Shown: piece after piece, positions 4,239-63,204 of the stretch
Layout: every line of letters starts with the position of its first letter
Numbering within the stretch: the first letter of the stretch is position 1
Assembly: GCF_000003815.2 (NCBI RefSeq)
Contig: NC_049980.1
Location: forward strand, 14,906,293 to 14,970,292
Length of the DNA: 64,000 nucleotides
Direction of reading: 5' to 3'
From: Branchiostoma floridae
Lineage: Eukaryota > Chordata > Leptocardii > Amphioxiformes > Branchiostomatidae
The notes under the pieces: model-generated
Told to the model about the DNA's origin: nothing
Database searches by the model: none
Seen by the model: the letters and a program-made list of their open reading frames with translations, nothing else
Translations under genes and position numbers: made by a program

Positions 4239-4310
4239 TTATTGACGTGGAGTTACGAGTCATGGCTACCCGAGTTGCGGCATTCTGCATCCTCCTGGGC
4301 AGCATTGCAG
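4239..4310 (+). CDS. CUB gene 1 exon 1: 5-prime UTR end and signal peptide
   Basis: A splice acceptor (TTCCGCAG) ends at 4238, so 4239-4261 is the end of the 5-prime UTR and at least one non-coding exon lies upstream. The ATG at 4262 opens MATRVAAFCILLGSIAG, a typical short signal peptide with a hydrophobic core, followed by the donor GTAATG. The coding part is 49 nt and ends in phase 1, exactly as in the two paralogs, which strongly supports the start. Confidence 0.75.
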
Positions 4311-7300
4311 GTAATGTGGTGTTTTATTGAATAAGACAAGATTCATGTTACTTCTCAGCAAAACACTTAACAACAAAACACTTAACAACAAAACACTTAG
4401 GAACAAAACACAGCTGACTCCTGTAAGTAATTATTTACTCATGTATTTTGTTTCTTTCTAGCATGTAGAGGTGAGCAATAACCTGTTTCGCTTCCCTCTT
4501 CGTTGTGATTTTGGTAGTTAAATAACAACTGAACAAAATAATGTAATCTCTCATTGTACTTAGGAAGGCGACGACAGAGCTTCAATAAACCGGTTGAAGA
4601 TGTGCTATAGAACCGTTGGACACTCTCAGAAAGCTATTTATACACCCGTAGTCCTGGACGTTTGTCTTCTTGTCCACACAACACTTCCGTCGCCTGCAGG
4701 CTGTGCCGGGTACTTGCGCACCGGGTCCGGGAGTGACAGGAGCTTTCCATCCTCCCCGCGCCTCGCTGAGAGAACAGCGTTCGTGCGCAGCATATATTCA
4801 GTTGGTTTCTCGTTTCGCTGACTCTGATAGCAAATGTAGGAATGCCTTGTCACGGCTGACCTGCCTGCGCAATTTTATCAGACTACACGAGAGGACCGAG
4901 GGACAAACAGAAATGCCATACTTACACATTCACCATTGCAAGTTATCAGTTCAGGTGTACTTTTTTTCAAAACCTTGCCTATCCGCGATTACCAAAAATT
5001 GCCATTACTTTCCCATATACTGTTCATACATGTATGTAACGCAACCTTTCCGTACCATATCTGGACCATACAAGAGGAAAGAAGGTGTTGACCTTTGCTG
5101 TCACTCACCAGACAGGCGTGGTCTCATGTGCTGTTCATCAAATATCCCTAAATGTCAATGTCAAAGTAGAAGTGTCTACTAGACAAGGGAAATAAGGTGA
5201 GGTAAGGTAAAGGCCCCTCGCCATGCAGGGTGGTTTAATGACTTGATTATGTAGCATAGTCTATGGTAAAGGTTTTGGTGAGGTTGCAGAGGAGGTATGT
5301 TCGACCCGGCAATTCAATATAATAAAATACACGGCAAACGGGCATAGCCGTATACTTGTATTCCAAGACTGTGAGGTGCATCCAGGCTTGCCTTGCCTGG
5401 ATTACCAGATCAATGGCTAAGTGGCTGGTTGGTATTTACAGACATCGAATCAAAAACGTATTAGATTTCACTAACAGGGACGTTGTCGAATAGAATACAA
5501 CATTCCCAATTGAAATATGCGGTTTCATGAGAGGCAGCGACTTAACATTCGTGTCATCGTACGACGATAGCTTGATATGCACAATTTGTCTTACTGAATG
5601 ATGTGCCGCTTCTTTCCCGAAGTCTGCTTTCCTTTGTTTCATCATTTTGCTGTCAGTTTCACAATTGCTCATTTTGGGACGTTTGTGAGAATTGCTGGAG
5701 GCTAGGGTACGTATTGAATTGAAGTTGCTTGGTGCCTGATAGATGCCCGTCCAGCCGGCTGTGCTGGGTTGGATAATAGTGTTCGGTCTGGCGTGTTACT
5801 CTGACCATCATGGAGAGGCAGGTCACATCGCTCAAGGGCCTTCTTGACTTTTAGAGTCTTGCGCATATGCAGGAATAGAAAGTGACCACGCTCCTACACT
5901 TCATACTGCGTTCTCATCGGTTTGAGGTCGGAACAGTGCGTCGAGTGTGGCATTACTGCATGTAGATAAAGCTTTCAAACGCTCACACTTCGGGAGTATT
6001 GAGTAATAAACAATAAATCAAACAACTGGATACATTCTCTAAGGAGGCACACGTCCCAAAAAGCATCCACAATCTTTCATCAGTGGTTAACTCATTATCA
6101 GTCACTGCCACTGGGGAAACAGCATCCACAATTTTTTATCAGTGGTTAGCCCATTTTCAGTCACTGTTGAAATGGATACTATCTGAAATGTCTGACTCTT
6201 TAGAAAATATATCCAGTTGCTTGATTTATTTTGTCCAACGTAATGTTCCACCTTAATTTAAGCCTTTATGGACGTACTTAGTAATTATTTCCACCATTGT
6301 GACTGCAAAGTACTCCAAAGGCATCGTGCATCAAATCATTGCCACTTTTAGCAGGGCCAAAATTGTCACGATCTTAACAGCAAAGACTCTTGTATATAAC
6401 TCAGTTATTATACTGTATGTAGTCGTAGTTACACTGTAGAGTTGCCCTTATAATAAAGGGTTAATGCCCCGGCCCGAGGTGTATATGGTGTCCTTATCTT
6501 GCTCGCATTGCCAGTGGCGACCGCAGCTGCAGCTCCATTTGCTGGTTTATCACTTGTAGCATAATGAGGACAGCAGCAGAGCAAATGCTAGGGCGCATCA
6601 ACAGTTATTCTAGATTTCATGGTTTGAATTCATTTTGATTGCAATAGGAAGTTACTCTTAACAGCATAAATACGGCATCGCTTCTCATGAATCTATATGA
6701 TATGTACTGACTGTTTTCAACTCTAATTGGAATTCTAATTATTTTCCGATCTAACGTGGTTTTCTATTAGATTGTGAGAACGCAGGTTAACGTCTCAAGG
6801 GCATGAGGAAAATGTTGGAGATCGAATCAGTAGCCTCGTTATGTCGTAAATTTGCCATGATTATATGTACAATTCCACTCGTAAAGTCTAATAGTCTCGA
6901 TTGGAATGCCATACATGTGCCAGGAGCCGTTAGTTTTACGGCAGTATTTGATTATGCTCGGCGTACAACGTAAATGGATAGTGAGGAGATGACGGTTTTT
7001 GAGAAACATTATTCAAATGAGTCCATGTATTACAGATGTAACCCACAGGACCACTAATGTATATTTTACAACGACGAACAGTGCGTAAAATGTGATATGC
7101 GTTTGTGTATGATGGTAAAGCCCTATTTCCAGAAAAGTCTGCATGTGCAATGTATCAGCATGTAAACAAGAACCACTAGGAAACACGAAGTCTTCAAATG
7201 GTAGGAATTCGTACACTTCATAAACTCTGATGAGTGTGAGCGCAAAGGACACTGTACACACGCGCTGGAGACTGTTATTGCGCTGACTACGTGAATTCAT

Positions 7301-10300: not shown

Positions 10301-13300
10301 AGTCTTGTATTCTATGCCAGGCATCTTAGCCCTGTTAACAACAACGTGTCGGTCTTCATTACCAGCTGTGATGAATGACCATATAGGATGAGGCTGGTAT
10401 TACCAGAGAAAAAAAAAACGTCATGGAAAACTAGTGATATGTCAGAGTTTATAAAACTACATTTACCAAAGCACGTGCATTTTCAATCAGCACTAATTCG
10501 ATTTTCACGTTTAGGGGCCTAGTAAGTACATTTCTGAACTAGATTAATGCGGTACAGAAAGAGGTCTTACGTCGAGGATTTCCGGCGCTTCGTTTTGAAC
10601 AAAATTTTCTCAAATGCGGATCACAGATTTCCTTCGTGCAATGTTTACCCACGCATTAAAATACTTCGTATCGCAAGAGGTTAATTTTTTTGTAATACAG
10701 GGTATCTGTTCTTATGTGCCATAGATTTGACAGAGTCTACTCATTATTTTCAGTAATCTGCACCGCCAGATGCAGCAGGTCAAGACCTACAAAAGGTAAG
10801 CACTGGTCCAGTAGCATTTCTACCGGCGGTGATAGCTAATTGTTCTAAGATCTATCTCACGTTACAATCCCTTCTACCTTGTCTAGTCACAACAAAAACA
10901 CCAATATATCAGTGTGCAGTATAAGGCTTTGCATTTATAACCCCTGATGTCTTAAATCAACTATGGCACTTTCATTGTGTAGACAAATGACCGACACCAG
11001 CATACCTCGATGTTGAACCTAATTGCTGCTGGCATGATACATCCTCACAGAGTACCTGCTTGGTAATACAGAGTAGTAGTATAGTTACTCGGGTACATGA
11101 ATCACAATTATTTCCAACCGATTTTCATGGAACCTGTTACGTTCACATTTGTGCATTCTCTTTAGGCTAGAAAAAAATAATTCTTAAAGCCGAACACCTA
11201 AACTGACAAAGCCAAAGTTCATTAGAAAATCATGAGTATGAATTCTATTCAAGTACACAGTTACGTACTGACACCATATGCATTTTCAAAACCATAGTTA
11301 CATGATTTGCACATCCTGTATGCTTGTCGTACATATGAATTACCTGAGGTTTAGATAGTTGACTAATAGTTGGTGTATCGCCAGTTGTTGTGTTCTCCCG
11401 AGGCCTGACGGAGTGATTGTACATTATCTCTACCCCGGTTTCATGATTATGCTTCATGAAGCGCATCCAGCTCAAACTTCCCTGGAAGATGAAACTAATT
11501 CCCCCTGTCCCAAGCTATCGGCGCTCTTGGATCCGGTTCACTTGTTCATAATTCGCAAATCCAACCCTATGAACGATTTTCTGAAAATACTGAGGCGTAA
11601 GCGTTATTATGTAACCTCTGAATTCGGTAATCTCTACCATAGGTCACGACAATGGTGGCTACATCACTCACGTTACGTGAAGAAAATGTACATCCGGTTC
11701 TTAATCACTGTTTGTTTCCGTCAGCAGAAATATGAGATGGGAATTGGCATCAATTCTGCCCCTATAGGGCAGGGAGACGGGAAAAAGCATCGATGGTTGT
11801 CGTTCAATTTTAGGAACACGTACGGCCTTACACGGTCTGGCATATTGGACATATAATACTATGCAAAAGAATGAGTGCATAATGGTACAATGGCTTTCTC
11901 TGCAACAAGAAGACCTAACTCAAAACCAATTAGTTTCTATGTGTAGTTTACATACCATCGACAATAGAAAGTTTGCACTGTACGCAAATGCAAAATTCTA
12001 TCTGATTGTGTAGAAAGTATCCTGTGGGATTATATAAAAAGAGGATGAAGTAATTTCGACACACAGCATCTGAACGCACATGTACATGTTTCTGTTTGTC
12101 TCGTGTATAGGGTGTGGAAGGACCATGAGCGCATATCGTGGAACCATCAAATCACCAGGCTTTCCAAACCCATATCCCCCTGCGCTAACAGAAGACGACC
12201 AGGTCTGCCAATGGATGATCAGCCTTCCCTACGGACATGGTATCAAGGTCTACCTGTACGACTATGACTTCAACTTCGAACCGAACGACGTTTCCACGGT
12301 GTACGACGAATTGCAAATCTTTAGGGACATAGCCTGCAGTGAAGCCGATAGGGAAAGGACGTTTGTTGGCAACCTTAGTGCCACATCGCTTATTCACCTA
12401 CCTAGCCACTGGGCATGTATCAAATTCATCAGGAGGACACTTCAAAACCTTCAACATACTGGCTTCTCTCTGTCCTATGAAGGTTCGTTGAGATCAAGTT
12501 GTCACTGTGCTGGATACATGACAGATGTTATTATTCACCTTGTACTGCCTAGGGGTATGCAGGGCAGCAAACTTCCTTGCTGTTTCTGTAGCATTATATA
12601 TCTGTGGATGGAAGGGGTGCTAGCCCTCCCCCCTCGAAGTACCTTCTCGAACCGCACTAGACGGGTGCAACCCCAACTGAAATTGACCATCCGGGATTTA
12701 ACCGGAGTCTCGCATTTACCTACTATATTTGGAACCAGGGGCTCCACTATGAGGCTGTTACCGGTTGAGCTGCCTTTTTACATGATAGATAACTTATGTT
12801 AATTTTAGAAGGCCTATTAAGAGCAACGCCATTGATCATTAGGTAGCACAATCAAGTAATGGATTCTAAAAGAAGAAACCATTACTGGGTTTAAAAGGGA
12901 AACAGCTTCTGACTGTTTAGTATTATCAGTGAATGATTTACGAAACATATAATTGACAATTTGGTGTTTTTTCGTTTTCTTTTTTTTTTCTAAACCAGAC
13001 ATTACTCTGTGTAATTGTTTACTCTGTGTAATGTTAGACTCTGGCCTTAAATACTGATTTCCTACTTGACAAATTGCACCTACCCAAGCACATAATGTGT
13101 TACCCCACCCACCCCAACTGGAGCGTAAATGCAGAGCAGATGCCAGCAAACATGATTTACTTTGTTCCATATGTACTGACATTTCTGGACGTATGGCAGA
13201 ACGTCTGTCTTACCGTTGCTTATGTGCCATGGAGATTTTGCTCCAAAGTTAACATAAACTTCTTTTACGCTATAAGCTTCTGTCTCCGATCCAGTACACC

Positions 13301-15531
13301 CTAATACACGACTATCAATCAATGGAGTGGGAAGTGTCGGGATAAACGTCACATGAATTCTGCAAGGTCATTGTTTCTCAAGTAACTGAATATTTTTGGA
13401 AATCTATCCAGTTGTTTGGAAAACTGTTACCTTGCGTATCCTATTACCTGAGTGTCTAACCTTCATCGACGTAATGTGAACTTGTGTTTTCACCATGTAG
13501 TTATTGACGCGAACAGTGACTGCGGGGTAAACAAGACGACGAGGCTTCTCTCTGAAGAGGGCTACATTTTCAGCCCAGGCTACTCCATATCCAGTTATCC
13601 ACAAGACCTAGAGTGCACGTGGTTGGTGGAGTCCCAGCCCGGCAGTACCATTGCCGTCACTTTCCTGGACTTTCAGCTCAGCTACACCTATAGCTGTGAC
13701 TTCGCTGCAGACTACGTACAGATCGGAAACTCTAATACATCGTATGCCTTTAAATACTGTGATTCGGACTCGCCGCAGCCTTTTCAAACAAAAGATAACC
13801 GACTATGGGTATTCTTCAAGTCCGGGCAATGGAGACATCGGGGATTTTGGTTATACTACAAAGGTGATGTATTTTGACAAATAAGTGCACTTGGTGCCAG
13901 GTCCATTTTACTCTTGCGTAAAATAATGGCACCCGAATTACTTACTTACTTATTATGCTTAACATTGTTATGTTTTATGGGTACATCAATGATCCAAACG
14001 AGCCTCATTAGATTTTCTTGAGAACTAAAACAGAATAACCCCAGTTGGTAAGAACAGATAGTGCAATGAATTTGTATATGTGTCTTTAAAGGTAGTTTCA
14101 CTGTATCTAGCCCCTAAGGGCCCTTTAACTATGTCTATGTCTGTATCATGAAAAGTAATCCACATTTGTCTTTTGTCTTATACAATATTTTGTTGCAAAT
14201 GGATTAAAAACAAATCTTTATGAGGTCTGTTACCCCCCTGTTACCCACAGGCGACTGATTTTCCTCTTTATTAGAAAAGCAAGCTTTCAATCATCCTCAG
14301 TACATGTACGTGAGCAGACCACATTTCATTTCGCGGTTCCCCCGCCCATCCTCCAGCCGTCTGGCGCCGCTAACGAATGTGACCAATTCTGACTTCTAAG
14401 GAGTGATAGGGAATCCTGCGGTCTTACTGACTCCTCATTTTCATGCACCAGTTCCCACAGATTGGGTGGTTTGGTACAAGATCCACGGGGAAGAAATTGT
14501 ACAACCGTAGGAAATAGATGTTTGAGTTGTAGCAATGTAGCATGTCCGACAACTTTGGCTGTCAGTCTATTTAGTATTATTCAATTGCTTGTTTTTCTTT
14601 CAAGCTCAATTATTACGCCTTTTTTTCACTTTTCCACAGGGTCCGGAGACTCAATCGATTCAGATCGACCAAGTTCAGATTACTGGAAAACAGGTTCCGT
14701 CAAATTTGGATGGAGCCGTGGTGACGATACAGGCGGGACGTCATTTGTAGGTCTGTAGTCGTGTATCATATTATAGATGTTCCGATAACATGAGAAACTA
14801 CTCAACGATGCACAGTTGACTAGAAATACTAGATTTTTGGCGGTCTAAAGCTGCGAGAATATAGGTCATTTGAAAATTTCATATACTGCGTCTCATAGTG
14901 AGTACCAATATAACCTGTACGTACTGATGACGAATGACGAATACATGGTTCAACCCTATAGCTAAACGATACCGTGAAAAATAACAACGCGTGAGACAAA
15001 ATATATTCTACAAATGTTGAACGCAAGGGATTCAATATAAATACAATTTGTTGATTACATATTAATGCCGTGATTTCTACAGCTGTTACTACGCCGTAGA
15101 TATATTTTACATATTGCAGATGCTGTTGCTAAAAGGCACATTCAGTCTGAAACATTAATAATTTGTTCGTACAGGATGGAGTAGGGACTCCAACAAAGTG
15201 GACCCCTTCAAAAAGTCAAATGGAGGAAGAATACGTAAGTATATTAGCTCTGTAAAAATCCCTGGTCATTTCAACCATTCCATGCACGCCATTACATTTT
15301 TCATCATTTTATGCCTGCTTGAGTTTGTGATGCCATTTATCATATACCGCCGTGTAACATACAGAAGCACTAATTAAGTGGCCACAGTGGTGACATGGGT
15401 TTATCATCCAAAGCGAATCGCCTTTAATCTGAATTAATGTGCCTTTCCCCTCTCCCACAGATCTGTCATACCAGCTCATACTAGCAGAGGTCATCATAGC
15501 TGCGACTTCATTACTCACCAGACGAAACTGA
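4262..15531 (+). CDS. CUB gene 1: secreted or tethered two-CUB-domain protein (complete, 7 coding exons)
   Basis: The predicted joined coding sequence is 4262-4310, 10754-10795, 12111-12482, 13501-13863, 14640-14750, 15175-15234 and 15461-15531: 1068 nt, 355 aa plus TGA. The order is a signal peptide (residues 1-17), a Cys/Arg-rich micro-exon segment (17-31), CUB1 (about 31-155), CUB2 (about 155-276), a hydrophilic linker (276-333) and a hydrophobic tail (333-355). Each CUB has the usual four cysteines, which suggests two disulfides, and the SPG[FY] start signature. All introns are phase 1. CUB domains are extracellular binding modules; the ligand here is unknown. The gene has the same architecture as two downstream paralogs. 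Uncertainty is greatest at the 3-prime end, where exon 5 has an alternative donor and another terminal exon is possible at 16310-16387. The protein is probably extracellular or cell-surface. Confidence 0.8.
4359..4412. repeat. 15-bp tandem repeat, about 3.6 copies
   Basis: The unit CAAAACACTTAACAA repeats at 4359, 4374 and 4389, followed by a partial fourth copy. It lies just inside intron 1 of CUB gene 1, about 50 nt from the donor. It looks like a simple minisatellite. Confidence 0.85.
6062..6168. repeat. 59-bp tandem duplication
   Basis: AGCATCCACAAT starts at 6062 and again at 6121. Each copy continues with TCAGTGGTTA, then CAGTCACTG after a few mismatches. The two copies are close but not identical, so the duplication is not brand new. 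Confidence 0.8.
10754..10795 (+). CDS. CUB gene 1 exon 2: Cys/Arg-rich micro-exon
   Basis: This is a 42-nt exon between a TTTTCAG acceptor and a GTAAGC donor, phase 1 on both sides. It codes for VICTARCSRSRPTK. Paralog exons at 25947-25985 and 59919-59960 code for RCSRSRP in the same position, which is the main evidence that it is real. It joins the signal peptide to CUB1 and would sit near the mature N-terminus. Confidence 0.8.
10796..12110 (+). other. CUB gene 1 intron 2
   Basis: The intron is about 1.3 kb. A 165-codon open frame at 11359-11856 lies inside it. That frame has no recognisable domain or signal, is overlapped by a minus-strand frame and has no counterpart in the paralogs, so I leave it uncalled. 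Confidence 0.5.
12111..12482 (+). CDS. CUB gene 1 exon 3: CUB1 domain
   Basis: The exon is 372 nt, phase 1-1, acceptor GTGTATAG and donor GTTCGT. It encodes one whole CUB domain starting CGRTMSAYRGTIKSPGFP, with cysteines at the start, in the CQW motif, after the DELQIF strand and in ACIKF. The pattern GIK..LY.YD..FE, the IH.PS..AC strand and the final GFSLSYEG match the two paralog CUB1 exons. One N-glycosylation sequon (NLS) lies after the third cysteine, at the same site as NYT and NDT in the paralogs. Confidence 0.92.
12483..13500 (+). other. CUB gene 1 intron 3
   Basis: The intron is about 1.0 kb. It contains a repeat-like GC-richer block (12535-12790) that may be a tRNA-related SINE on the minus strand, listed separately. 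Otherwise I see nothing in it. Confidence 0.6.
12535..12790 (-). mobile_element. Possible tRNA-related SINE fragment
   Basis: Read on the minus strand, CAGCTCAACCGGTAACAGC resembles a tRNA/SINE box A, and TGGTTCCAAAT and CCGGTTAAATCCC resemble box B in degraded form. The block is more GC-rich than the surrounding intron. There is no clear tail or target duplication, so this is a weak call; it could equally be an unrelated intronic repeat. Confidence 0.25.
13501..13863 (+). CDS. CUB gene 1 exon 4: CUB2 domain
   Basis: The exon is 363 nt, phase 1-1, acceptor ACCATGTAG and donor GTGATG. It encodes the second CUB domain, with EEGYIFSPGY at the start, ECTW, TFLDFQLSYTYSCDFAADY in the middle, FKYCD, and FFKSGQWRHRGFWLYYKG at the end. 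The four cysteines are in standard CUB positions. By hand count it is about 62 percent identical (72 of 116) to the gene 2 CUB2, clearly higher than for CUB1. Sequons are present at NKT and NTS. Confidence 0.92.
13864..14639 (+). other. CUB gene 1 intron 4
   Basis: The intron is about 0.8 kb. A CCCACAG acceptor-like site at about 14453-14459 could open a short exon, but no donor in a useful phase follows before a stop, so I do not call it. Confidence 0.5.
14640..14750 (+). CDS. CUB gene 1 exon 5: hydrophilic linker
   Basis: The acceptor TTTCCACAG is preceded by a strong pyrimidine tract. The exon is 111 nt, phase 1-1, donor GTCTGT. It codes for a Ser/Asp/Gly-rich, low-complexity stretch with SDRPSSDYWKTGSVKF. 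The gene 2 counterpart carries SDEPIPDYRQ at the matching place, so the two are probably homologous despite low identity. An alternative donor (GTAGGT after TTT) lies 6 nt upstream. Confidence 0.65.
   Translation, partial: GPETQSIQIDQVQITGKQVPSNLDGAVVTIQAGRHL
15175..15234 (+). CDS. CUB gene 1 exon 6: linker
   Basis: This is a 60-nt exon between GTACAG and GTAAGT, phase 1-1, reading GWSRDSNKVDPFKKSNGGRI. It parallels the 57-nt exon 6 of gene 2 (GRKRGIRPWQSYAESKGHF) in length and phase. If the alternative exon 5 donor is used, the same DNA reads in another frame and would join to 16310-16387. Confidence 0.6.
15461..15531 (+). CDS. CUB gene 1 exon 7: hydrophobic C-terminal tail and stop
   Basis: A very strong acceptor (CCTCTCCCACAG) opens a terminal exon that reads HLSYQLILAEVIIAATSLL then TRRN and TGA at 15529-15531. 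It aligns with the gene 2 final exon (VILVTSLSAATVFIAGL), including the shared AAT. The tail is moderately hydrophobic but has an internal Glu and ends in Arg-Arg-Asn. It could be a short transmembrane segment or a decayed GPI signal. Confidence 0.6.
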
Positions 15532-24762: not shown

Positions 24763-24847
24763 GTTAAAAAGTCTGGAAATCGGAGAGTTGTCTGCACAAT
24801 GAGTCGAGCTCTACTGATACCCTTATGTGCTGCCTTTCTAACTGTGG
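24763..24847 (+). CDS. CUB gene 2 exon 1: 5-prime UTR end and signal peptide
   Basis: The acceptor TACTTTTTGCAG ends at 24762, so 24763-24798 is UTR. The ATG at 24799 opens MSRALLIPLCAAFLTVG, a clear signal peptide, with donor GTGAGT. The coding part is 49 nt, phase 1, identical in length to both paralogs. Confidence 0.85.
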
Positions 24848-27800
24848 GTGAGTACAAATATGACTTATGTTTCAAAAGCAGGTAAAACGATTAAAGCAAA
24901 GAAACCAAAAGGTAAAACTACGGATATAAGAATTTATATGAAAGTTGCTACCATGTGTACCAAGCTTATAGGACGCCGAGATCATGGTTCAAGTCCTTTT
25001 GATACCATTGTTATATATGTAACGAATAGGTCATGTGCAAACAAAGCATAAAGCTTACTGTTCACTAACTTATTTCATACCCATTGCCTGTATCACTTTC
25101 TGGCAGATTGAAGGATAATGTGGTTTTATCATGATTATATGAGTGATATTCATCCATGTACTGACGCTCTGATCCGTACACTTTCTGTCCCCGTCTGCTG
25201 CGTACTCCGGGCAACAGTGAATCTGTCAATGAGTAGAGTGGACGTGTTTTGAAAAGCCACACATGTGGCAACATTCAAACCCGCAATCTGCTCTGTTTAC
25301 GTAATAAGTCTGCTTAGTCATTCGAGAATGGCGCATCATGATATCTCTGGTTGGCATACAATGCAAGAAGACGAATGAGTGAATCAGTCGGCCAGTCACA
25401 ACCCATACGTGGAGTTCCAGGAGGCAGGCACCAATACCGACCACAGGGCTTATAAACGTATTTATGCACTCGCACATCTTGTGACAAATGTTGCAGACAA
25501 GAACAGAAAATGTGGCTAATGGTCACGAAAATGCATAAGGTCGGAAGAACGATGATTTGTACCGAACTCTATTGAAAATTAGCGGTGATCTCACTGACAG
25601 GACACGGATAAAAGGTTTCCGCCGTGCATACAGGTCAAACAAAATCTTCTAGATTGCACGTTGATACACAATTCCCTCTAGCTACCCATTTATCATTACG
25701 TCAAGGAAACTTACAAGTGTGCCGTTTCTTCTGTTGTGTAAATTATATCTAAAAAAGATAAATTACACTGCCTGTTTGTCACAGCTGTACGTGTGGTTTT
25801 GTGCTGACGTTGCTACAGCTGCCAAGAGTCAACAAGATATCATACATCATTTTGACATGAGTTGCAGGAAGTACCACGACGTCTCTTCCTTTCACGCACA
25901 CTGAGAAGTATCCTCATCATGTGATGTAATGTGCTTTTACTTACAGGGATATGCGAAGCACGTTGCAGTCGCTCGAGGCCAAAATGTAAGCAATTCTCAA
26001 AATGTTAGCGTTGGAAAGGAGTGAAATATACCGGTACACTTGTCTAGATCTAGCATGCGCGCAAATATATGTATCATAAAGGAATTAGTAGATCATGGTG
26101 ATACATAGAATATGCTATTTATCTGGAAAATTGTTCTGTAAAATATTATTTCTATGCACTACCGGAATTTAGGTCTTAAGAATAGGGAATGAACCTTGTG
26201 AATATAGATGAAATATATACACCTAGGCCCCACCTGGCCACAGACTGCAAAATGCAGAAGAGTCTGGAGTAGTTCAAGGGAAAGATTCCTCAGAGAGAGT
26301 GACAATGCCCTGTCATGAGAGAGATATCGCGGCATGCTACTTTCTTCTTATATTCCATATAACTCTGTAATCAATGTCATTGTCTAAGAATAATTCAGAC
26401 TTTTTTTCAGCCTGCGGAAGGACAGTGTCGTCTTACCGCGGCTGGATAAAATCACCAGGATTTCCGCGCCCATACCCCTCCGCCATGACAGAAGATGATC
26501 GGATTTGCACCTGGACGATACGTCTCCCCCTCTCCCGCGGCATCAAGATCATACTGTACGGCTTCGATTTGAATTTTGAAAAGACAGGGGTTGGGCCGAC
26601 AAATGATGCATTACAGATATACATGGATGAGTCATGTAACACTCTGCTGAGAAATTATGAGGGGAACTATACCGACGCGGACCTAATTCACGTTCCCAGC
26701 AACAAAGCGTGCATCAAATTTCTCAGGAGAACAGAACAAAATTACCAACACAACGGATTTTCCTTGGGTTATGAAGGTATATTGATTTTTTTCTGTACCA
26801 ATCTCCTCACAAGAATTGCCCGAAGAAGAATTTACCTAACTGGTGTCTCTTGTGGAAGTTATCTCTTGTTGGAGTATTTGTCACACATGATATATATTCT
26901 AAATACGAGTGATTATTAATCTCATATCTGGTATATCTTGTTTCGTTACCATGTTGTGATTGTTTTGGACGTGCACGTGGATAGCCATGATAAAGCAAAT
27001 GGATATCAAGGCACCGTAATTGACCTCAATGTGACCCATAGATCTGTTAGTCTGGCTCCATAATTCCATTTTACCATTTTGATATGATGTATTATCTCCA
27101 TTTATGGAGACTTTGGAGATTGCGGGGCAACGCATATATTGTCCTAATGCAATCTCCAACCGTGAAATTTGCTTATGTCATAAAACAATCATTCATAATT
27201 CTGTATGTTTTGCTGACGTATGCAATAAATTGGTTAGTCTTGATTAATCCATCTATTCATATTCATATTCAAATATGTAATATGAAAATCAAATACATAC
27301 TTAAGAGTTATATTTTTGTTTTCATCTGTCTTCACTTTGCAATTGGAGATGACTATATTTAAAGACGAATCGATCATAACAAAAGGGTAAGATATTATTT
27401 CCGTGGATTTTTAGTGGCATCCGTCACACTTCTTCAGAATGAGTCAATACTAGTAAGTGAGATGTAACAAGGAAACCGGTTTGAGAAAACTTTGTCATCA
27501 TCAAGATCAACAGGTCCTTCCAGTCACATCTTATATGTCATGCACTAGTAATGAATCGTTTCACCAGTTCGTTGTTGTGACACTGAATAAGATTTCCGTA
27601 TCTTATCCAGTTGTAGAGATTGATGTATCTTCAGATATTGTTTAAATACATGTCTAACCTACATCAATGTACATGTTACTTTGTTTCAGCTGTTGATGCC
27701 AGTGATGAGTGTGACAGCAATCAGACAACCACTCTGACGTCTGATGAAGGGTACATCTACAGTCCAGGATACCCCGTAGCAAGTTATGAACAGGAACTCA

Positions 27801-29960
27801 ACTGCACGTGGCTCATCCAAGCCGAGCCCGACCAGACAATCCAGATAACATTCCTAGATTTCCAACTCAGCTATACCTTCAGCTGTGACTTTGCCACTGA
27901 TTACGTTCAGGTTTTCGAGTTGAATTCATCTCTGAACTTTAAATACTGTGACCAGGATTCTCCGGCTCCGTTCACGAGCTACTCTAATATCATCTCGGTA
28001 TTCTTCAAATCTGGAAGGTGGAGGAACAAAGGATTCTGGCTACACTATAAGGGTTTGTCATCTATACAATGTATATATATGACCACCTTCGGTCAATATT
28101 CCCAAGGTAAACCCCTTCTTCACACCAACCCTAGCTTTGCACAATGTCATAGCTAATCAGCCGTATACGATACAGGCAGTCGCTGCCACATATAGAATTC
28201 TTTTCTCTGGATCCATGCACGTTTTGTTTTCAATGCGCATCAGTCTAGCTTCTCCTGGTTTTGACTGGACAGTGTGAATCGCCAACCGGATTGGTCATTG
28301 GTCGCCTCTTTTCCAAAAACTGTTGTCAGTTTAATGTTGAATTTGAAATGCAACGATATACAAAACTTAAATGTTTTTCGCAAGAAGCTGCAGGCAAGTT
28401 AGGAAACTTGAGGGCGGCTTTTTTGCATGCTTGATCATTATAAGCCTGCCTGCGGATTAAATTGCACATATGCAACGATGTGTATTTTGTGTAATTTGAA
28501 GGACCCTGAGATAAAATAAAACACCATTAAGATAAAGACTGGGCGTGCATAGGTCAAACAAGAACTGTTATCAGCCTTCGTCTTTGGCATATTACCCACA
28601 GTGTATCTTAGTGCGCATGCGCACCTTAAACCGTGAAAAGACTTATTCACAACAGCTTGCACAATGATCCTACATGCAGCAAACACTGCTGGTGTCCTGT
28701 CAGACGAGCCCATCCCTGACTACCGCCAGATCGTGGACGAATGGAGGAATTCAAATTCGCCACTGATGCCGCACGAAGGTAAATTTGGCTCTACCACAAT
28801 GTATTGGTCATTGGCACCCACAGTATAAACAACCATTTGACTCGCCTCTGAGGTGTACATGTCGCCAAAAACGCCAAACATTATAACCATGGTAAGATCC
28901 AACGGCTGAACGTTGTTTTCGAGATGTTACCGGAAGGCACAACCTTACAAGTGCAATCATACCTCTGTGATTCTACAGGTAGGAAACGGGGAATAAGACC
29001 ATGGCAATCTTATGCTGAATCAAAGGGACATTTTGGTGAGTAATGGAATCATCCTATTTGTAGCGCAAAAACGTTGTAAAAGTCACACAACCATGAAGGA
29101 TTTCTAATATCTGATATACCTTAAAGGGATATCTTAGGCATGACATTGAAATAACTTGACAGTCAGCAAATAATGAAAACTTTCACCCCAGGCACCATGC
29201 TTGATTCTTTGATGTTGCATGATGTTTTGATGTATTGTAAAGTATTGTAATTTTACATCGTGCATTGCAATCCAATTATGAAATTGATCCAATTTTGATC
29301 GTTGTACTGTCGCTCAGCGATCGCCGCCAACCAGTGAAATTCGGCCTTAAAATGATCATATTACATGTTTCTTTATTTTTCTCTTAGGCCATGTTGATTT
29401 GATTATATGGATGACATCCTCCGGGAACTCCAAAACTGATGCGAGCGAGCGAATAAAAAAAAGTTTGGCCAAAAAAAAAAAGTTGCCTTCAGTATGAAAT
29501 CAAAGTGGCCAGGAAGGTTGAACATAGGTCTAAACACACATAGTATGGTATACATTGATCCTCTGGACCTGAATGTTCTGTACTGGTACCTCCCCCAACC
29601 AACAATAGATTTTTTTCTTTCCGTCCTTTCACATCTTATTCTTTGACTTTAGATTCATTTTGGCATTCTATCTATGGCATTAGTTATCTGTTTTCTGATA
29701 CTTTTTTTTCAATCTACGGAATATTTGTGCTCATTTTACAGCTACTTTGCACAATTTATTGTGTGGTCGAAAACTTTTTTTTTTTGGAAATGGCCGAAAA
29801 TTGGTGCGAGCGCGGATGTCATCCATATAATCAAATCAACGTGGCCTTATATCATGAAACTTTATTCAGAACTGATTGTTCTTTTACATCCTCAGTGGCC
29901 GTGCGGGTTATCCTTGTAACATCGCTGTCGGCAGCAACCGTCTTCATCGCAGGATTATAA
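24799..29960 (+). CDS. CUB gene 2: two-CUB-domain protein with hydrophobic C-terminal tail (complete, 7 coding exons)
   Basis: The predicted joined coding sequence is 24799-24847, 25947-25985, 26411-26776, 27690-28052, 28680-28778, 28979-29035 and 29896-29960: 1038 nt, 345 aa plus TAA. The domains are a signal peptide (1-17), RCSRSRP micro-exon segment (17-30), CUB1 (30-152), CUB2 (152-273), hydrophilic linker (273-325) and a hydrophobic tail ending at the stop (325-345). All junctions are phase 1. The tail VILVTSLSAATVFIAGL has almost no charged residues after it, which fits a GPI-anchor signal or a transmembrane segment without a cytoplasmic part. This is the cleanest of the three paralogs and the best template for the family. 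The role is unknown; CUB pairs usually bind protein or glycan ligands outside the cell. Confidence 0.85.
24848..25946 (+). other. CUB gene 2 intron 1 (about 1.1 kb)
   Basis: This is much shorter than the matching introns of gene 1 (6.4 kb) and gene 3 (4.3 kb). I see no exon or named repeat in it. Confidence 0.6.
25947..25985 (+). CDS. CUB gene 2 exon 2: Cys/Arg-rich micro-exon
   Basis: This is a 39-nt exon between CTTACAG and GTAAGC, phase 1-1, reading GICEARCSRSRPK. It is one codon shorter than in genes 1 and 3. Two cysteines are present, as in gene 1; gene 3 keeps only the second. Confidence 0.8.
26411..26776 (+). CDS. CUB gene 2 exon 3: CUB1 domain
   Basis: The exon is 366 nt, phase 1-1, acceptor TTTTTTTCAG and donor GTATAT. 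It starts CGRTVSSYRGWIKSPGFP and ends GFSLGYEG. The four CUB cysteines and the RRT.QN.QH.GFS motif are shared with genes 1 and 3. The sequon NYT lies at the family-conserved site. An open frame continues past the donor but runs into non-homologous sequence, which supports splicing at 26776. Confidence 0.93.
26777..27689 (+). other. CUB gene 2 intron 3
   Basis: The intron is about 0.9 kb, AT-rich, with no exon or repeat that I can support. The pyrimidine-rich acceptor TTGTTTCAG closes it. Confidence 0.6.
27690..28052 (+). CDS. CUB gene 2 exon 4: CUB2 domain
   Basis: The exon is 363 nt, phase 1-1, the same length as in gene 1. Motifs in order are DEGYIYSPGY, NCTWLI, TFLDFQLSYTFSCDFATDY, FKYCDQDSPAPF and FFKSGRWRNKGFWLHYKG. 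Sequons occur at NQT, NCT and NSS. The donor reads GTTTGT, weaker than its neighbours but at the position conserved in the family. Confidence 0.93.
28053..28679 (+). other. CUB gene 2 intron 4
   Basis: The intron is about 0.6 kb with no exon or recognisable repeat. It ends at the acceptor CTACATGCAG. Confidence 0.6.
28680..28778 (+). CDS. CUB gene 2 exon 5: hydrophilic linker
   Basis: The exon is 99 nt, phase 1-1, donor GTAAAT. It reads ANTAGVLSDEPIPDYRQIVD and then a polar stretch ending PLMPHE. It contains no cysteine. SDEPIPDY matches SDRPSSDY of gene 1 exon 5. Confidence 0.75.
28979..29035 (+). CDS. CUB gene 2 exon 6: basic linker
   Basis: The exon is 57 nt, phase 1-1, acceptor TTCTACAG and donor GTGAGT. 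It reads GRKRGIRPWQSYAESKGHF. The RKRGIR start could be a basic protease-processing site, which would release the CUB ectodomain from its tail; that is inference only. Confidence 0.7.
29036..29895 (+). other. CUB gene 2 intron 6, carrying a MITE
   Basis: The intron is about 0.9 kb and more than half is occupied by the TIR element at 29387-29846, listed separately. The rest shows nothing recognisable. The acceptor ACATCCTCAG closes it only 46 nt after the MITE's target duplication. Confidence 0.65.
29387..29846. mobile_element. PIF/Harbinger-type MITE (460 bp) with TTA target duplication
   Basis: The ends are 33-bp terminal inverted repeats differing at one base (GGCCATGTTGATTTGATTAT and onward against GGCCACGTTGATTTGATTAT). 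TTA flanks both sides (29384-29386 and 29847-29849). A 3-bp TTA duplication with TIRs is the PIF/Harbinger hallmark. Inner parts of the arms also pair partly (the GCGAGCG and poly-A/poly-T parts). There is no transposase; it must have been moved in trans. Confidence 0.85.
29896..29960 (+). CDS. CUB gene 2 exon 7: hydrophobic C-terminal tail and stop
   Basis: This terminal exon joins in phase 1 and reads VAVR then VILVTSLSAATVFIAGL and TAA (29958-29960). It is almost wholly hydrophobic to the last residue. Homology with gene 1 exon 7 is visible in IL..., AAT and overall length. Confidence 0.75.
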
Positions 29961-48395: not shown

Positions 48396-48399
48396 CCGG

Positions 48400-48550
48400 G
48401 CTCACTGATTGGCTGCCAATCCCCTTCGGGATGTTGACTCAGGCTACGTGATTGGTTGCCTCTTTAATCAAGTTACTAGTATATATAGACATGTGCACAT
48501 GCTGTCTTCCGGTGGGAGAGGTCAACGACCTTGAGGTCGTTGACCCTCTG
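48400..48550 (+). promoter_or_regulatory. Promoter-like block: CCAAT boxes, TATA box, downstream hairpin
   Basis: ATTGG at 48408-48412, CCAAT at 48416-48420 and ATTGG at 48451-48455 precede TATATATAG at 48480-48488. About 30 nt further on comes a hairpin (48517-48549) with AGAGGTCAACGACC paired with GGTCGTTGACCCTCT. The order and spacing look like a Pol II core promoter, perhaps that of the repeat that follows; there is no evidence of transcription. Confidence 0.35.
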
Positions 48551-48654
48551 GCCAGTGGAGAATTACTAAAAAAGTACCCAAATATATCATTTTGAAGTGG
48601 TTTATGCTAGAAATTATACATGGGTCATTTGAATGAATATCTAGTGCACCTATT

Positions 48655-49229: not shown

Positions 49230-49240
49230 ACCATACCTAT
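49230..49240. repeat. LINE target-site duplication (one copy)
   Basis: ACCATACCTAT here is repeated exactly at 52506-52516. It directly abuts the stop codon of the LINE frame. Confidence 0.92.
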
Positions 49241-52200: not shown

Positions 52201-52351
52201 GTGGTCGATTCCGAGAAAGGTCAGTCCTAATGCTTCCAGTCGGTGTCGTTACATGATTAAGTTCCGCCATGACGGGTAGTGGGCCCGACGCTGGCGTAGT
52301 CAGCTGGTGGGGCTGCCACCTCGCAGCATAACTGACATGCTGAGGGTCCAT
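49241..52351 (-). CDS. LINE ORF: AP endonuclease - reverse transcriptase (1036 aa)
   Basis: This is the retrotransposition enzyme of the element. An APE-type endonuclease spans about residues 66-310, with VRVATWN (66-71), ICEVRW (98-103), TDANAT (205-210), AIDHIL (276-281) and NTDHRLL (303-309). It would nick the target. The reverse transcriptase spans about 525-845, with KLKNGKAPG (535-543), HRGITLLS (601-608), AFIDLRAAFD (669-678), GVRQGC (728-733) and the catalytic box EYADDTSLLADD (769-780). A C-terminal RRVRWYGHVLR (950-960) motif is common in RTE-like and related elements. The start is ATG at 52351, with an in-frame TAA two codons before it. There is no frameshift or stop. Plus-strand frames here are antisense shadows. 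Confidence 0.93.
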   Translation of the reverse strand: MDPQHVSYAARWQPHQLTTPASGPLPVMAELNHVTTPTGSIRTDLSRNRPLRATDKRVLNFRNKVRVATWNVQTLLRTGYATLLSHELTKYDLSLAGICEVRWPGSGETIVGDHTFIWSGPEDRTGLYGVALAIPSRLRGSLISWKPISDRLLTARLLHTHGKMTVIVAYAPTEVAEDTDKDAFYDQLQEAVQDAPPHDITLVLTDANATLSANTHPSAQQDAMGPISVDTTTNDNGNRLLELCRATNLCIADTWFPRKRIHHWTWYSPDGRTRKAIDHILISGRWKSFITNCRVYRGAQLGNTDHRLLMAHMRLKLKADPSSKKQVRVDSARLKDPLIQEAFSCAISNRYNALAMDATTDWQLFKEEVLKATEETVGKSRPSPKQPWISPETLDIIDSRRAARLRGDLTEYRRLNGIRNIAIRQDREKYWTDQAAKLEAAAERNDQRQVYRLLRQAKAGPRQRSFLIKDSVGNIISTESDCIHRWKEHFSQLLNHPPVPEDPTLSEAASATDATNADCPVTPVTPDEVKAALGKLKNGKAPGICNITAEMLKAGGDHMIQWLTQIVNHVWVLETLPDDWRRGIILPFWKRKGDQLVCSNHRGITLLSIPGKLFTRILLTRAIPAIRSRRRLQQAGFMPNRSTIDHISALRLAIEKAREFRKDRHLYIAFIDLRAAFDTVDHASLWKILRLLGAPQKTISLFQQLYNSAESCVRVNGKESEWFSINSGVRQGCVAAPDLFNCIIDYLMSRVCERVPGVSFGQYNLADIEYADDTSLLADDLTRLQDALTVYDEEAKKLGLSINWGKTELMHVGDGPDPEPFIFSGCPVKFVSTFKYLGSIISKTGDLKPEINQRRAQASAVLQSLWKPLWRHRHVSLQTKQRVYNSSVVSVLLYGSETWPLSNTLAARLDGFDSRALRRITCTRWQEHVRNSDLREQTGQPPASSLAAMRRVRWYGHVLRLPPEHPTRALLDFDPKQAGWRRPRGAPRTRWMDVVTRDLRSINITPQQAQPAALNRGRWRTLVHAVGSTHHVQEDE

Positions 52352-52505
52352 CCTTTAGCGACTACCCAAGCTCCACCCCCTCATTCGAGGTTACAGAGTA
52401 GGAATGTGGCACCTACCCCGGGACTGGGAGATTGGTACATTCGGGCTCTCACACCACGGCAAGGCGGATGGACCGGGAGCCGATGTTAGGGCATCCCCGT
52501 GAGAG
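49241..52505 (-). mobile_element. Full-length RTE-like non-LTR retrotransposon (3265 bp)
   Basis: It is bounded by an exact 11-bp target-site duplication and contains a 154-nt 5-prime UTR (52352-52505) and a single uninterrupted ORF. Its 3-prime end coincides with the TGA stop (GAGGATGAGTGA), so it has no 3-prime UTR and no poly(A). Length of about 3.2-3.3 kb, one ORF and a short TGA-type end are typical of the RTE clade. Intact structure suggests recent insertion and possible activity. Confidence 0.9.
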
Positions 52506-55569: not shown

Positions 55570-55633
55570 GTCGTGACGTCTATCATGGCAATCAAGATCT
55601 TAGTGAGCTGCCTGGTCTTCCTGTGCTGCTTCG
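55570..55633 (+). CDS. CUB gene 3 exon 1: 5-prime UTR end and signal peptide
   Basis: The acceptor ATTTTTTTGCAG ends at 55569; 55570-55584 is UTR. The ATG at 55585 opens MAIKILVSCLVFLCCFG, with donor GTAAGT, phase 1. Its coding part is 49 nt, as in the paralogs. Confidence 0.85.
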
Positions 55634-58600: not shown

Positions 58601-61600
58601 CTGAAAACTCAAAGTTCTTTTAGAGCTGATCGACCAAGCCTAAGACATGATTATACATCCCCCGAAACGCCATCAACGTGGTTAAGTTAATATTCAATAA
58701 GGTATTAAGATGTTCCCGGAAAGAGCCCCTGTGAGCACAGTTTGAAGTAATTGGCTAGCAGTGACCCCAGCCTTCTTACCTTCCACCATTCATCAAAGGT
58801 TCGATTCCCAGATCAGTCATATATAACACATATTCAAACATGTCGGCCTTAACATCACCCTAAACCTGGATTCCTCTCCTAAATTTTAGATGTTCGTTTA
58901 TTTGTTGGCTTGATTGGACTAGAATTGTTTACACTAGCTTCTATATCCTTTAATGTTCAAATGGCGGTGTATGCTACTTTTATTTGCCCTGACATCACCC
59001 GTTCCATCAGAAGGTGTGGCCGATGAGCGAGCGAAGAACTACAAAGTATCCACTACTAACCACATACAGATCGCTCTGTAGATATTATAGTTTTGCAGTT
59101 TTTGAATTCATGTTTTTCATAGTCCATCCTATTCTAACTTTACATTAAATTTAAGGGTGACACAACTAAAAGATACACTTGAATCCCTGGCTACATGTAG
59201 ATTAATATTTCATATCTAATGATATGTTTATGGGGCAAACTCTTACAACTGGCAAGCCTGACGGTGTGATGCGCCTGAAAAGTGTTGTGAGAGTAGGTTA
59301 AGCAATTTGTCTCTGAGTGAACTAACATGACCGACATTGCAAAGTCCATCTTCAGAGTAATTTGTTGGAGCTCGTTTCCACAACCATGATGTTCTTTTAC
59401 TGCAGCTGTATTATAGGTGAGCCTGGTTGAACTAATAGGACGATATATTCTTGGATCTGCAGGCTCATTACATTGGCTTGTAGACAGGTGAACTTCATTA
59501 ACTATGACTAGACTGTACATCTTCTAGGGAAACCCTGTCTGTGCAGTGTCTATAAGCTCACATAAATACCAGCTATACTCCATCATACCAACCGTAGCAG
59601 TAGAACAGTATGTTTTGTGGGTACCTGAAAGAAAGGAGATTTGAGGATAAATAATTGGGGATATCGAGCTCAAATCTTGACATAAAGTAACATAACTTGT
59701 GCCTTTGACGTTACATATTTGTAAGTGATATGATTGTATCCACAATCAACCGAGTGAGTCCTCTACTTACTATCTTTAGTTCTAATTGTCATGTGCAAGA
59801 TAAGTTACATGATATTTTAATTCGACCTCCTGATTTTTATATATGATTGATATATGAGGCATTACGTTGGGCCTTACACATTGCCTTACAAATCCTCCTA
59901 AATTCTTATCATTTTCAGCTGATGGCTGGACAAGATGTAGCAGGTCGAGACCACATAAAGGTAAGCGATGAAAATCTGCACACTGTTCAGTGGTGATAGC
60001 GCGTAGCCATATGTCTGTGTCACTTTCATGAGAGAAAGTCTCAAGCTTACAAGCGTTTAGCTTTATCTTAATTATGAACAGGCAGTTACGTTGATGCTAC
60101 ATATACCACGTTTATCAAGTTCAGGAATGTTAGCAGGCCTTACAAGTATATCGGGGCCAAGATTGTACCAGTTTGCAGAATTGATAACGGAAGTGCCAAA
60201 CATCCCTAACACTGTTCATCAATTCAGGATCTTTCTTGGGAAAACAATTATCAGGTCCCGCACGCAGTCTGCTTGATCAACGCGGTGTGGAAAAGCTTTT
60301 TAATCATGTATTTAATGATTTATCGAAAGCCTTGGCTTTATTCTTCACCCCAGAGCGAGGCTTTTAAACCCATCCCCTCATTATCAGTCCGCTTTCACGG
60401 TGGCAATCAATGGCACACATCCTACAGGGTGCTAGATAGTTCAATGTTTGTCAGCCTTTGAGCCGATGTGACGCAGAATTACATTTGCTAATTAGTAATA
60501 TCGTGAAATTAACAAATTCGGTGATTAGAGTGTCTCAGACATAGTAGCAAAAACATAATTTTGATGTTGTAAAAAGAACGTGTTCTGTAAAAGTCTCAAT
60601 TCACTACACAATAAGACTTTCAAGCTAACTAGCTGCACTTGGCGACTTCTTACTCCAAACGTGCATGTTAGAGCTGATTCGCTAGAAATATCAATATAAG
60701 ATAGATAGATATTCGACGACTGTAACGGTACGCATTCAATTAACGCCACAAATTGACGTACATATACACTGTTTTAACGATAGAACATTCATGTTGTCAT
60801 CTATACCCTCCATTCAATCTTTACATCAAAATCTTCCAAATAAAAGATGAATGATGATGATGATACTTATAAGTCTGATGTTCGTCCATGCAGCATGTGG
60901 CCGAAGCATGACATCCAACCGTGGCACCTTCAAATCACCGGGATTCCCTCGCCCCTATCTCTCCGCTGATACACTTGAAGACAGAGTCTGTACCTGGTTG
61001 ATCACCCTTCCCTCCGGCAAAGGCATCAAGTTGCTGTTGTACGGTTACGACTTCGCCTTCGAGAGGCTTACATACAGAACGCACATGGACGAACTGCAGG
61101 TCTTTAGGGATGAAATGTGTGGAGAGGAGAGCCGTATAAGGCAATATCAAGGCAACGATACGGAATACGACATCATTCACATCCCCAGTAATACAGCCTG
61201 TATAAGGTTTTTTAGAAGGACTACACAAAATCACAGCCATACGGGATTTTCTATGTCATATGAAGGTGAGTCGAATTCTTATGCGTCTAATTTTCTTTTC
61301 TTTAATTGTCTTACCTTTCTTTATATGAAGAGTGTGTTTTAGTGGACTATTTTTTTTTTCAAAATCTGACAACAAAACTTGAAGTGATGGACTCCATCAC
61401 ACCTCATCATCCAGTGGTAGTATTCACGGACCAATCGGTGTGGTGGAGAATGCAAGGCACGTGACGTAAATAATCATGTTAGTCACAATGGATAGTCGAT
61501 ACTACATCAACAGCTAAATGCAATCCCTCATCAGGATGGAAAGATCAACAAGTACTGCTCATTATTTCACTTATTTAGACTACAGACCATGGGAAATAAG

Positions 61601-63204
61601 TCCATGATACCGGCTGTGTGTAAATAGCCTTTTATTTCCCTGGTACGTTAATCCCTTTTGACATAGGCTACAGTCTAATGGACGAGAGAGTACACTACTA
61701 ATGGACCAAGGGCCCATGTTATGCAAGTGATCAATAAACAGCAACGTCTTACATTATGTATCAGCTACTAAACGTAGAGTGGCGTATGTTCCACGACTTT
61801 AATGCACGATTCAAGCATCTGATCACTAAAAACATTTTCATTGTCATTATTTCCCGGTCATTTGTGTTGATTCGTTACGTCTGCTTATCTAGTCAAGAAA
61901 CAAAAAGATCCATCAACTAACGAAGGCAGATGAATCATCGGCATCCCCGGAACAATGCAACGGGCGTTATTCTGTTAGTATATCTAGTGAGAGCTTCCTG
62001 CTTACCAGTGAGTTGTGATAAACAGACCGTTCTCATGTAAATCTTTGCTATAGCTACTAATCTCTTTAGTAATGCCTTTATCTTGGAACATAGTAAAGTT
62101 ACCCAGAAATATCGTGTTGGCAACAATCCAGTGACGACTGTATTGGTTAGATACTAATTGCAAACTGCAAACTACAGATCGCTGCTGTTGAACCTATCAC
62201 TTCTGGTACCTTTGAACTTTTAATCGAAATTCACGATAAAGAAGCCAGGAAGGGGCAAGTTATAAATATCAGGTGGCTACGAGACAGACTTGACAAGATC
62301 AGAAATGTCGAACCGTCTACTTTCTTCATAAACATGCTCATTAGAAAGAAGAGTTATCATATCTAAGTAAACGTGGCATTTTTATGGGTTACTTGAGACA
62401 ACTGTCTGATCTTTAAGACACCTACAGCCTGGCGAAGGCTTTTATGACTACAATGATTCATCCATTGTATTACTTATATCCCATATGATATGAAAATAAC
62501 TGGATGATCGAAAAGGCATCATCGTTGCCAAAATATCCTTGCAATAAAGTAATTACCTGAAACAACATCTAAGGTGCCAAATTGTCCCCAATCGGTGGAT
62601 AGAAGTTCCAAATTCTGAGAGCTAATAAATCAACTTATTTGCACAGTACTATATATGTTGTGTCAGAGTGGGATATCAATTAGTATTCAAACTAAGAGTG
62701 GTTTACGACATGTTGCAATACCTTTTAAAGCGTTAATTGCAGCAGATGGCAATGTGTAAGGATTTACTCCAGGCTTAATTTTTTGGGGATTATCTGTAAT
62801 GAAATGATACGTATTGGATGTATTTCTTTCTGCAGCTGTGGATGACAATGGGGAGTGTGGAACCAACGGTTCTTCTATCTCTTCTATCTCGTCACAAGAA
62901 GGATACATACGCAGCCCAGGATACCCTGCGGCCAGCTACCCACAGCACATCAACTGCACGTGGGTTGTTCAAGTCTCACCGTCACAAACCGTTCAGGTGG
63001 AGTTCTTGGACTTTCAGTTGAGCTACATTTACAGTTGTGACTTCGCGCCTGACTTTGTGCAAATAGGCAGCTCCAACAGGACTTACGAGTTGAAATATTG
63101 TGACCAGGATACACCATCTATCTTCACAAGTAAAAAGAACATGGTATGGCTTTTCTTTAAGACTGGGCGCTGGAGGAATAGAGGATTCCTGGTGTATTAT
63201 AAAG
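55585..63204 (+). CDS. CUB gene 3: two-CUB-domain protein (3-prime end beyond window)
   Basis: The visible joined coding sequence is 55585-55633, 59919-59960, 60894-61265 and 62836-63204: 832 nt, about 277 residues. The order is a signal peptide (1-17), micro-exon segment with RCSRSRP (17-31), CUB1 (31-155) and CUB2 (155-277). Phase 1 throughout. By analogy with genes 1 and 2, two linker exons and a hydrophobic tail exon should follow; I find none of them in the 800 nt left, so the gene is cut by the window edge. Four cysteines per CUB, sequons NDT in CUB1 and NGS, NCT and NRT in CUB2. Likely extracellular or surface-bound; ligand unknown. Confidence 0.82.
55634..59918 (+). other. CUB gene 3 intron 1 (about 4.3 kb)
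   Basis: There is a possible tRNA-related SINE near 58740-58860. No exon is supported. The open frames at 57176-57481 and 59191-59520 are domain-free. Confidence 0.55.
58740..58860 (+). mobile_element. Possible tRNA-related SINE
   Basis: TTGGCTAGCAGTGACC resembles box A, and GGTTCGATTCCC (58798-58809) is a perfect box B about 40 nt later. No closing acceptor stem can be made, so it is not an intact tRNA gene. The downstream part has no clear LINE-like tail. Confidence 0.35.
59919..59960 (+). CDS. CUB gene 3 exon 2: Cys/Arg-rich micro-exon
   Basis: This is a 42-nt exon between TTTTCAG and GTAAGC, phase 1-1, reading ADGWTRCSRSRPHK. RCSRSRP is exactly conserved; the first cysteine of genes 1 and 2 is replaced by Trp. 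Confidence 0.82.
59961..60893 (+). other. CUB gene 3 intron 2
   Basis: The intron is about 0.9 kb. Nothing is recognised except a short ATG/GAT repeat close to the acceptor (60849-60864). Confidence 0.6.
60894..61265 (+). CDS. CUB gene 3 exon 3: CUB1 domain
   Basis: The exon is 372 nt, phase 1-1, acceptor GTCCATGCAG, donor GTGAGT. It starts CGRSMTSNRGTFKSPGFP and ends GFSMSYEG. It shares CTW, GIK..LYGYD, DELQVF, IIHIPS..ACI and RRTTQN with the paralogs, with sequon NDT at the conserved site. Confidence 0.93.
61266..62835 (+). other. CUB gene 3 intron 3
   Basis: The intron is about 1.6 kb. I see no exon or repeat worth naming. Confidence 0.6.
62836..63204 (+). CDS. CUB gene 3 exon 4: CUB2 domain
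   Basis: The exon is 369 nt, phase 1-1, acceptor TTTCTGCAG and donor GTAAGA. Motifs are QEGYIRSPGY, NCTWVV, EFLDFQLSYIYSCDFAPD, LKYCDQDTPSIF and FFKTGRWRNRGFLVYYKG. It is two codons longer than the paralogs, with an inserted Ser/Ile repeat near the start (SSISSISS). Confidence 0.93.

Follow-up and report, generated by a model that had tools for sequence, protein, structure and literature searches.

CUB modules are usually accompanied by other modules in the same polypeptide. Cubilin is a long many-CUB receptor, and proteins of the procollagen C-proteinase enhancer (PCPE) family carry an NTR domain after the CUB pair. NETO1/NETO2 and SOL-2 are presented in PMC9083331 as type 1 transmembrane proteins with two CUBs and an LDLa domain, and the same source describes neuropilins as having, besides discoidin and MAM domains, a short cytosolic portion. 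According to PMC8051872, Ca2+ was bound in the tandem CUB structures determined up to 2021, and the first exception was the CUB1-2 pair of ADAMTS13, described there as lacking the Ca2+ motif and as having an unpaired cysteine that gives rise to some disulfide-linked dimers. Here, three genes from a 64,000-base stretch of the lancelet Branchiostoma floridae (contig 2, 14906293-14970292; the window) are described together with three neighboring copies, designated A, B, and F. These six genes encode small extracellular proteins with a pair of CUB modules, apparently of a type not yet described. Listings of open-licence papers on GPI-anchored or double-CUB families, on a lancelet CUB cluster, or with the sequence RCSRSRP, which marks several members, contained no description of this family.

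The six gene models have a common six-exon, phase-1 layout that ends in a stop and contains no internal stop, and they predict proteins of 325 to 348 residues. Exon sizes are 49 bases for the signal exon (a uniformity that is partly chosen, because several candidates existed for some copies), then 39 to 48, 360 to 375, 363 to 369, and 87 to 111 bases in all six, followed by a last exon with the stop. Each full model presents two CUB stretches above the Pfam PF00431 cut-off, and the CUB jelly-roll fold was found. No domain type besides CUB kinds exceeds the Pfam cut-off in any of the six, the sole match above cut-off to a different model being a marginal CUB_2 in copy A. The first-pass annotation, made from the letters of the window, had set this architecture apart from known double-CUB families, and the Pfam results agree. 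The domains that would mark PCPE (NTR), NETO proteins (LDLa), and neuropilins (discoidin, F5/8 C, and MAM) gave no match at E ≤ 0.1 in the six models, if these are complete. Because these other domains were not found in any of the six models, no named double-CUB family fits. The explanation favored here, in which our confidence is evenly balanced, is that the genes encode a lancelet family of binding proteins with two CUBs that are glycosylphosphatidylinositol (GPI) anchored, Ca2+ independent, and possibly disulfide linked.

Profile and sequence searches of the B. floridae contigs (513,431,437 bases in 431 contigs, with contig 2 measuring 35,136,500 bases) retrieved at least six double-CUB copies genome-wide, all in one cluster of about 230 kb. 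The six gene models extend over contig 2 from 14847548 to 15075965, in the order A (+), B (−), genes 1, 2, and 3 (+), and F (−). Six is a lower bound, because an assembly gap of 20,235 bases sits inside the cluster, at contig 2 15034697-15054931, and may conceal another copy. The first-pass annotation had recommended a search for copies on both sides of the window, and A, B, and F lie there; the tandem arrangement in one orientation that it described holds inside the window, where genes 1 to 3 are all on the plus strand, and breaks down in the cluster, where two of the six copies are reversed. With CUB1 of gene 2 as the query, six loci matched and none further at E ≤ 0.001 (63 candidates scored). 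The CUB2 query from the same gene gave 48 matches among the best 150 of 253 candidates, six of them at E ≤ 7e-44 and the remaining 42 weaker, starting at E 2.2e-7. Viral and prokaryote contigs scanned with the three-gene alignment provided no relative, none of the 49 and 93 pattern matches, respectively, being confirmed. Other CUB exons are plentiful in the genome: the best 150 of 969 candidates scored with the Pfam CUB model all matched, and most of the genome matches lie on contigs 1 to 19. On contig 16, CUB exons are densely packed at 7844807-7889993, perhaps as a separate many-CUB gene or cluster. The downstream half of the contig 2 cluster also contains an open frame of 1250 codons, together with repetitive frames of GDATPDC and TQTLDTP units (15012437-15019050).

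The three window genes were rebuilt from splice sites and phase as sequence-based exon models. The exons from the short exon to CUB2 have AG/GT borders, and those from the signal exon to CUB2 join in phase 1. All six CUB exons of the window score above the Pfam CUB cut-off (E 2e-9 to 1.5e-17), and a profile search of the open reading frames (ORFs) of the window found no seventh. Position 4262 is the ATG of the first exon of gene 1, and 63204 is the final base of the gene 3 CUB2 exon. The exons are as follows, in window coordinates unless a contig is named.

4262..4310, plus strand: gene 1 exon 1, signal peptide; 49 bases, ends in phase 1; sole candidate listed in 1-10750
10754..10795, plus strand: gene 1 exon 2, short exon VICTARCSRSRPTK; genes 2 and 3 have a conserved counterpart
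12111..12482, plus strand: gene 1 exon 3, CUB1; Pfam CUB E 2e-9, splice sites
13501..13863, plus strand: gene 1 exon 4, CUB2; Pfam CUB E 9.3e-17, splice sites
14640..14750, plus strand: gene 1 exon 5, predicted polar linker; donor weak and uncertain, 14720 fits too
15461..15531, plus strand: gene 1 exon 6, predicted hydrophobic C terminus DLSYQLILAEVIIAATSLLTRRN and stop; strong acceptor tract, position test (see below)
24799..24847, plus strand: gene 2 exon 1, signal peptide; 49 bases, better of two candidates listed
25947..25985, plus strand: gene 2 exon 2, short exon GICEARCSRSRPK; splice sites, likeness across genes 1 to 3
26411..26776, plus strand: gene 2 exon 3, CUB1; Pfam CUB E 1.2e-11, splice sites
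27690..28052, plus strand: gene 2 exon 4, CUB2; Pfam CUB E 1.5e-17, donor weak
28680..28778, plus strand: gene 2 exon 5, predicted polar linker; acceptor uncertain, likeness to the copy A linker 1 of 2000 shuffles
29896..29960, plus strand: gene 2 exon 6, predicted hydrophobic C terminus VAVRVILVTSLSAATVFIAGL and stop; splice phase, position test
55585..55633, plus strand: gene 3 exon 1, signal peptide; 49 bases, better of two candidates listed
59919..59960, plus strand: gene 3 exon 2, short exon ADGWTRCSRSRPHK; splice sites, likeness across genes 1 to 3
60894..61265, plus strand: gene 3 exon 3, CUB1; Pfam CUB E 8.2e-11, splice sites
62836..63204, plus strand: gene 3 exon 4, CUB2; Pfam CUB E 8.6e-16, splice sites
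contig 2 14974187-14974294 and from 14975139, plus strand: gene 3 exons 5 and 6, predicted linker and tail; beyond the window

Splice sites, phase 1, and Pfam matches bear out the earlier claim that the three plus-strand genes share a signal peptide, an RCSRSRP exon, CUB1, and CUB2. Genes 1 to 3 all encode the RCSRSRP motif, though with differing codons; in the whole family the micro-exon carries it in four of six copies only, the other two having RCTRSEP and RCSKYGQRSP. Of the polar linkers and hydrophobic tails, also attributed to all three genes, those of genes 1 and 2 were placed inside the window, and both exons of gene 3 fall outside it. A second signal-like candidate of 49 bases precedes gene 2, at 22133. 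The signal exon of copy A is the middle of three ATGs on one shared donor, that of copy B was taken from six listed candidates without being the top scorer, and that of copy F is the fifth of eight, three of which are 49 bases long.

The linker and tail exons were located by splice phase and comparison of the six copies; all-against-all ORF comparisons did not expose them among the matches listed. Copy A has one linker candidate, and copy B and genes 2 and 3 have several, while the linker of gene 1 lies below the donor threshold of the scan. Likeness between linkers is strongest for A with B and A with F (0 of 2000 shuffles each), A with gene 2 (1), and gene 2 with F (7), the scores involving F being inflated since its linker was selected from many candidates as the one most like the others. 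The other 11 pairs show weaker or no likeness, the gene 1 linker resembling those of copies A and F at 23 and 33 of 2000 shuffles. The gene 1 linker peptide, sought downstream of gene 2, did not outscore three shuffled versions. In all six copies a tail-like exon is found no more than 1.6 kb beyond the linker, against a background of 0.17 per kb. In 20,000 trials with random points the largest observed distance was matched in 1e-4 and the sum in 2.5e-4, under criteria that were fixed after earlier candidate lists had been viewed. Copies A, B, and F and gene 3 offer two to six tail candidates each; for copy B the position test counted a match at 55 bases, too near for an intron, and the model takes the next, at 323 bases. 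By inspection, all six predicted models end in a short hydrophobic C terminus without a cytoplasmic part, with at most about eight residues behind the hydrophobic stretch. These predicted C termini look like GPI-anchor signals.

The CUB1 module retains the first CUB cysteine pair and has no cysteine where cubilin has YNC and YCG. Two further cysteines, C107 and C134 (copy A numbering), are invariant at nonstandard positions in all six copies and may form an alternative disulfide. CUB2 retains four cysteines. Besides these eight CUB cysteines, one in the N-terminal segment is invariant in the six copies, and in A, B, F, and gene 3 the mature chain before the tail contains nine cysteines in all, an odd count that suggests a disulfide link to another chain. 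The N-terminal segment is basic (charge of +2 to +4), and our guess is that it may favor a partner with acidic groups, for example a sulfated glycan. An N-glycosylation sequon is present at residue 230 to 235 in all six.

Ca2+ in CUBs is bound by one Glu and two Asp, as exemplified in PMC6954182 by E89, D97, and D134 of Gpr126. The Glu of the cubilin HLEF motif was taken, by analogy, as the first ligand. In CUB2, all six copies have an invariant Ser aligned with this Glu and lack the loop-9 Asp. In CUB1 an invariant Arg-Arg takes the place of the loop-9 Asp in all six, the second Asp is kept, and the alignment of the first ligand is ambiguous. Judged by sequence only, neither module has the three acidic ligands of the Ca2+-binding CUB subgroup, and from the loss of ligand residues in both we infer that neither binds Ca2+. 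Among five loop stretches, mean identity is highest in CUB2 loop 4-5 (79%) and lowest in CUB1 loop 6-7 (36%), and over the whole domain the likeness among the six copies is 58.6% for CUB2 versus 51.2% for CUB1. Two CUB1 loops differ among the copies in sequence as well as in length.

Several observations weigh against a GPI-anchored, disulfide-linked, Ca2+-independent family. Charged residues interrupt the hydrophobic stretch in the tails of gene 1 and copy A, and basic residues stand behind it in genes 1 and 3 and copy F. The tails have no clear mutual likeness (the best of 15 pairs scoring 46 of 2000 shuffles), and a weaker tail candidate of copy F, at 15064608, is nearer than the chosen one and was omitted by the criteria of the position test. 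The linker donor of gene 1 and the CUB2 donor of gene 2 are weak, and confidence in the predicted structure of CUB2 is poor (predicted local distance difference test score [pLDDT], 67). Finally, genes 1 and 2, judged by eye, may keep a second N-terminal cysteine after signal cleavage, which would bring the count to ten, an even number. A reading with a modest chance of being right is that the proteins are secreted, the hydrophobic exon being unused or mispredicted and the chain ending in the linker, with a role in body fluid or matrix like that of a PCPE devoid of its NTR domain. The tail-like exon close behind the linker in all six genes argues against this, as does the good linker donor of gene 2 (score, 5.3). 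It is unlikely, too, that these proteins cross the membrane once, with hardly any cytoplasmic tail, and serve as auxiliary receptor or channel subunits in the manner of NETO proteins: LDLa is unmatched in the models, no NETO chain occurs at E ≤ 0.01 among the CUB1 profile matches listed, and copies A and B and gene 2 have no basic residue after the hydrophobic stretch.

Genes 2 and 3 are identical to gene 1 at 57% and 55% of a 277-column alignment. In pairwise comparisons of the window genes, the proportion of synonymous differences (pS) is 0.78, which is saturated, and replacement change (dN) is 0.37 to 0.41. Across the six copies, core identity is 50 to 64%, with 71 of 248 columns invariant, and the tree has long tips and an unresolved branching order (supports of 46, 54, and 60). 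Signal peptides have diverged freely among the window genes, as expected for such peptides. Saturated synonymous sites, low replacement change, and the share of invariant core columns point to old, constrained duplicates, and the copies look like the product of long constraint rather than of a recent arms race. The first-pass annotation had likened the cluster to the expansions seen for recognition or fertilisation proteins, a comparison that these values do not support. The corresponding explanation, fast-changing gamete or immune recognition proteins expanded in one lineage by selection for diversity, would draw on the six clustered copies, on the two variable CUB1 loops, and on the action of the CUB protein EBR1 in sea urchin sperm binding, as mentioned in PMC9265791; set against the dN and pS of the three window genes and the invariant core columns, it appears quite improbable. 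That the copies are pseudogenes, or that the exons of a single larger gene have been mistaken for several genes, could appeal to some introns of several kilobases and is very hard to credit, given models without internal stops that keep phase 1, a predicted signal exon and stop of its own in each copy, and constrained replacement change in the window genes.

On the minus strand, an uninterrupted 1037-codon frame lies between genes 2 and 3 at 49244-52354, with an RVT_1 match (E 3.8e-30) and an endonuclease-like PF03372 match below cut-off; by its predicted coding content it is a retrotransposon of the long interspersed nuclear element (LINE) type. The guanine-plus-cytosine fraction is 0.51 in 48001-52000 and 0.38 to 0.42 in the remaining 4-kb blocks. 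Tandem repeats are found at 34126-34801 (250-base unit, 2.7 copies) and 48720-49051 (162-base unit, 2 copies). Ten long ORFs of the window have no Pfam match at E ≤ 0.1, and Rfam and tRNA scans of the window found nothing.

Under the GPI-anchored explanation, the chain would be made with a signal peptide, and its short basic N-terminal segment would be followed by the two CUBs and the polar linker. A GPI anchor would replace the hydrophobic C terminus, probably tethering the protein to the outer cell membrane. The partner of the paired CUBs would most likely be a protein or a glycan, bound without Ca2+, with CUB2, the more constant module, making a shared contact and the two variable CUB1 loops tuning specificity, and the spare N-terminal cysteine may join two chains. 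Since it would have no cytoplasmic part, such a protein would serve as a co-receptor, adhesion, or capture protein. A more pointed version is tentative and, as a whole, rather doubtful: that these are GPI-anchored chordate receptors made of only two Ca2+-free CUBs, assembled into dimers or mixed pairs via the invariant N-terminal cysteine, with CUB2 as the constant and the CUB1 loops as the variable contact. If it is true, six cysteine-paired paralogues could yield many pairings, and a second Ca2+-free tandem-CUB design would stand beside ADAMTS13.

Compared with the six-copy profile, the top PDB sequence match of the paired CUBs is to the CUBs of cubilin (PDB 3kq4; E 4.3e-45). That structure comprises four CUBs, and its aligned acidic Ca2+-site positions are partly lost in the lancelet family; to our knowledge, cubilin has no GPI-like tail or basic N-terminal exon. 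The neuropilin a1-a2 pair (PDB 2qqk; E 3.1e-22) consists of two N-terminal CUBs on a surface receptor. NETO1/NETO2 and SOL-2 present two CUBs on a membrane protein, as proposed here, together with an LDLa that was not found in the lancelet family. Spermadhesins, which have a single CUB, are ruled out by the two CUBs in all six models. The CUBs of procollagen C-proteinase enhancer 1 (PDB 6fzw and 9en2) bind Ca2+, unlike the state proposed for the lancelet family, and their acidic Ca2+ ligands touch the partner, as reported in PMC6372009. The CUB1-2 pair of ADAMTS13 shares the loss of the Ca2+ motif and differs in being the C-terminal part of a protease and in having its free cysteine in loop 9 of CUB1, not before CUB1. 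With a second Ca2+-free CUB pair one could test whether ligand binding depends on the metal site or on the fold, and the six clustered lancelet paralogues would allow the fate of duplicates to be studied outside the vertebrate genome duplication. Because CUBs elsewhere so often come with other modules, a tethered family made of the pair only would offer a clean setting in which to learn what two CUBs do without them.

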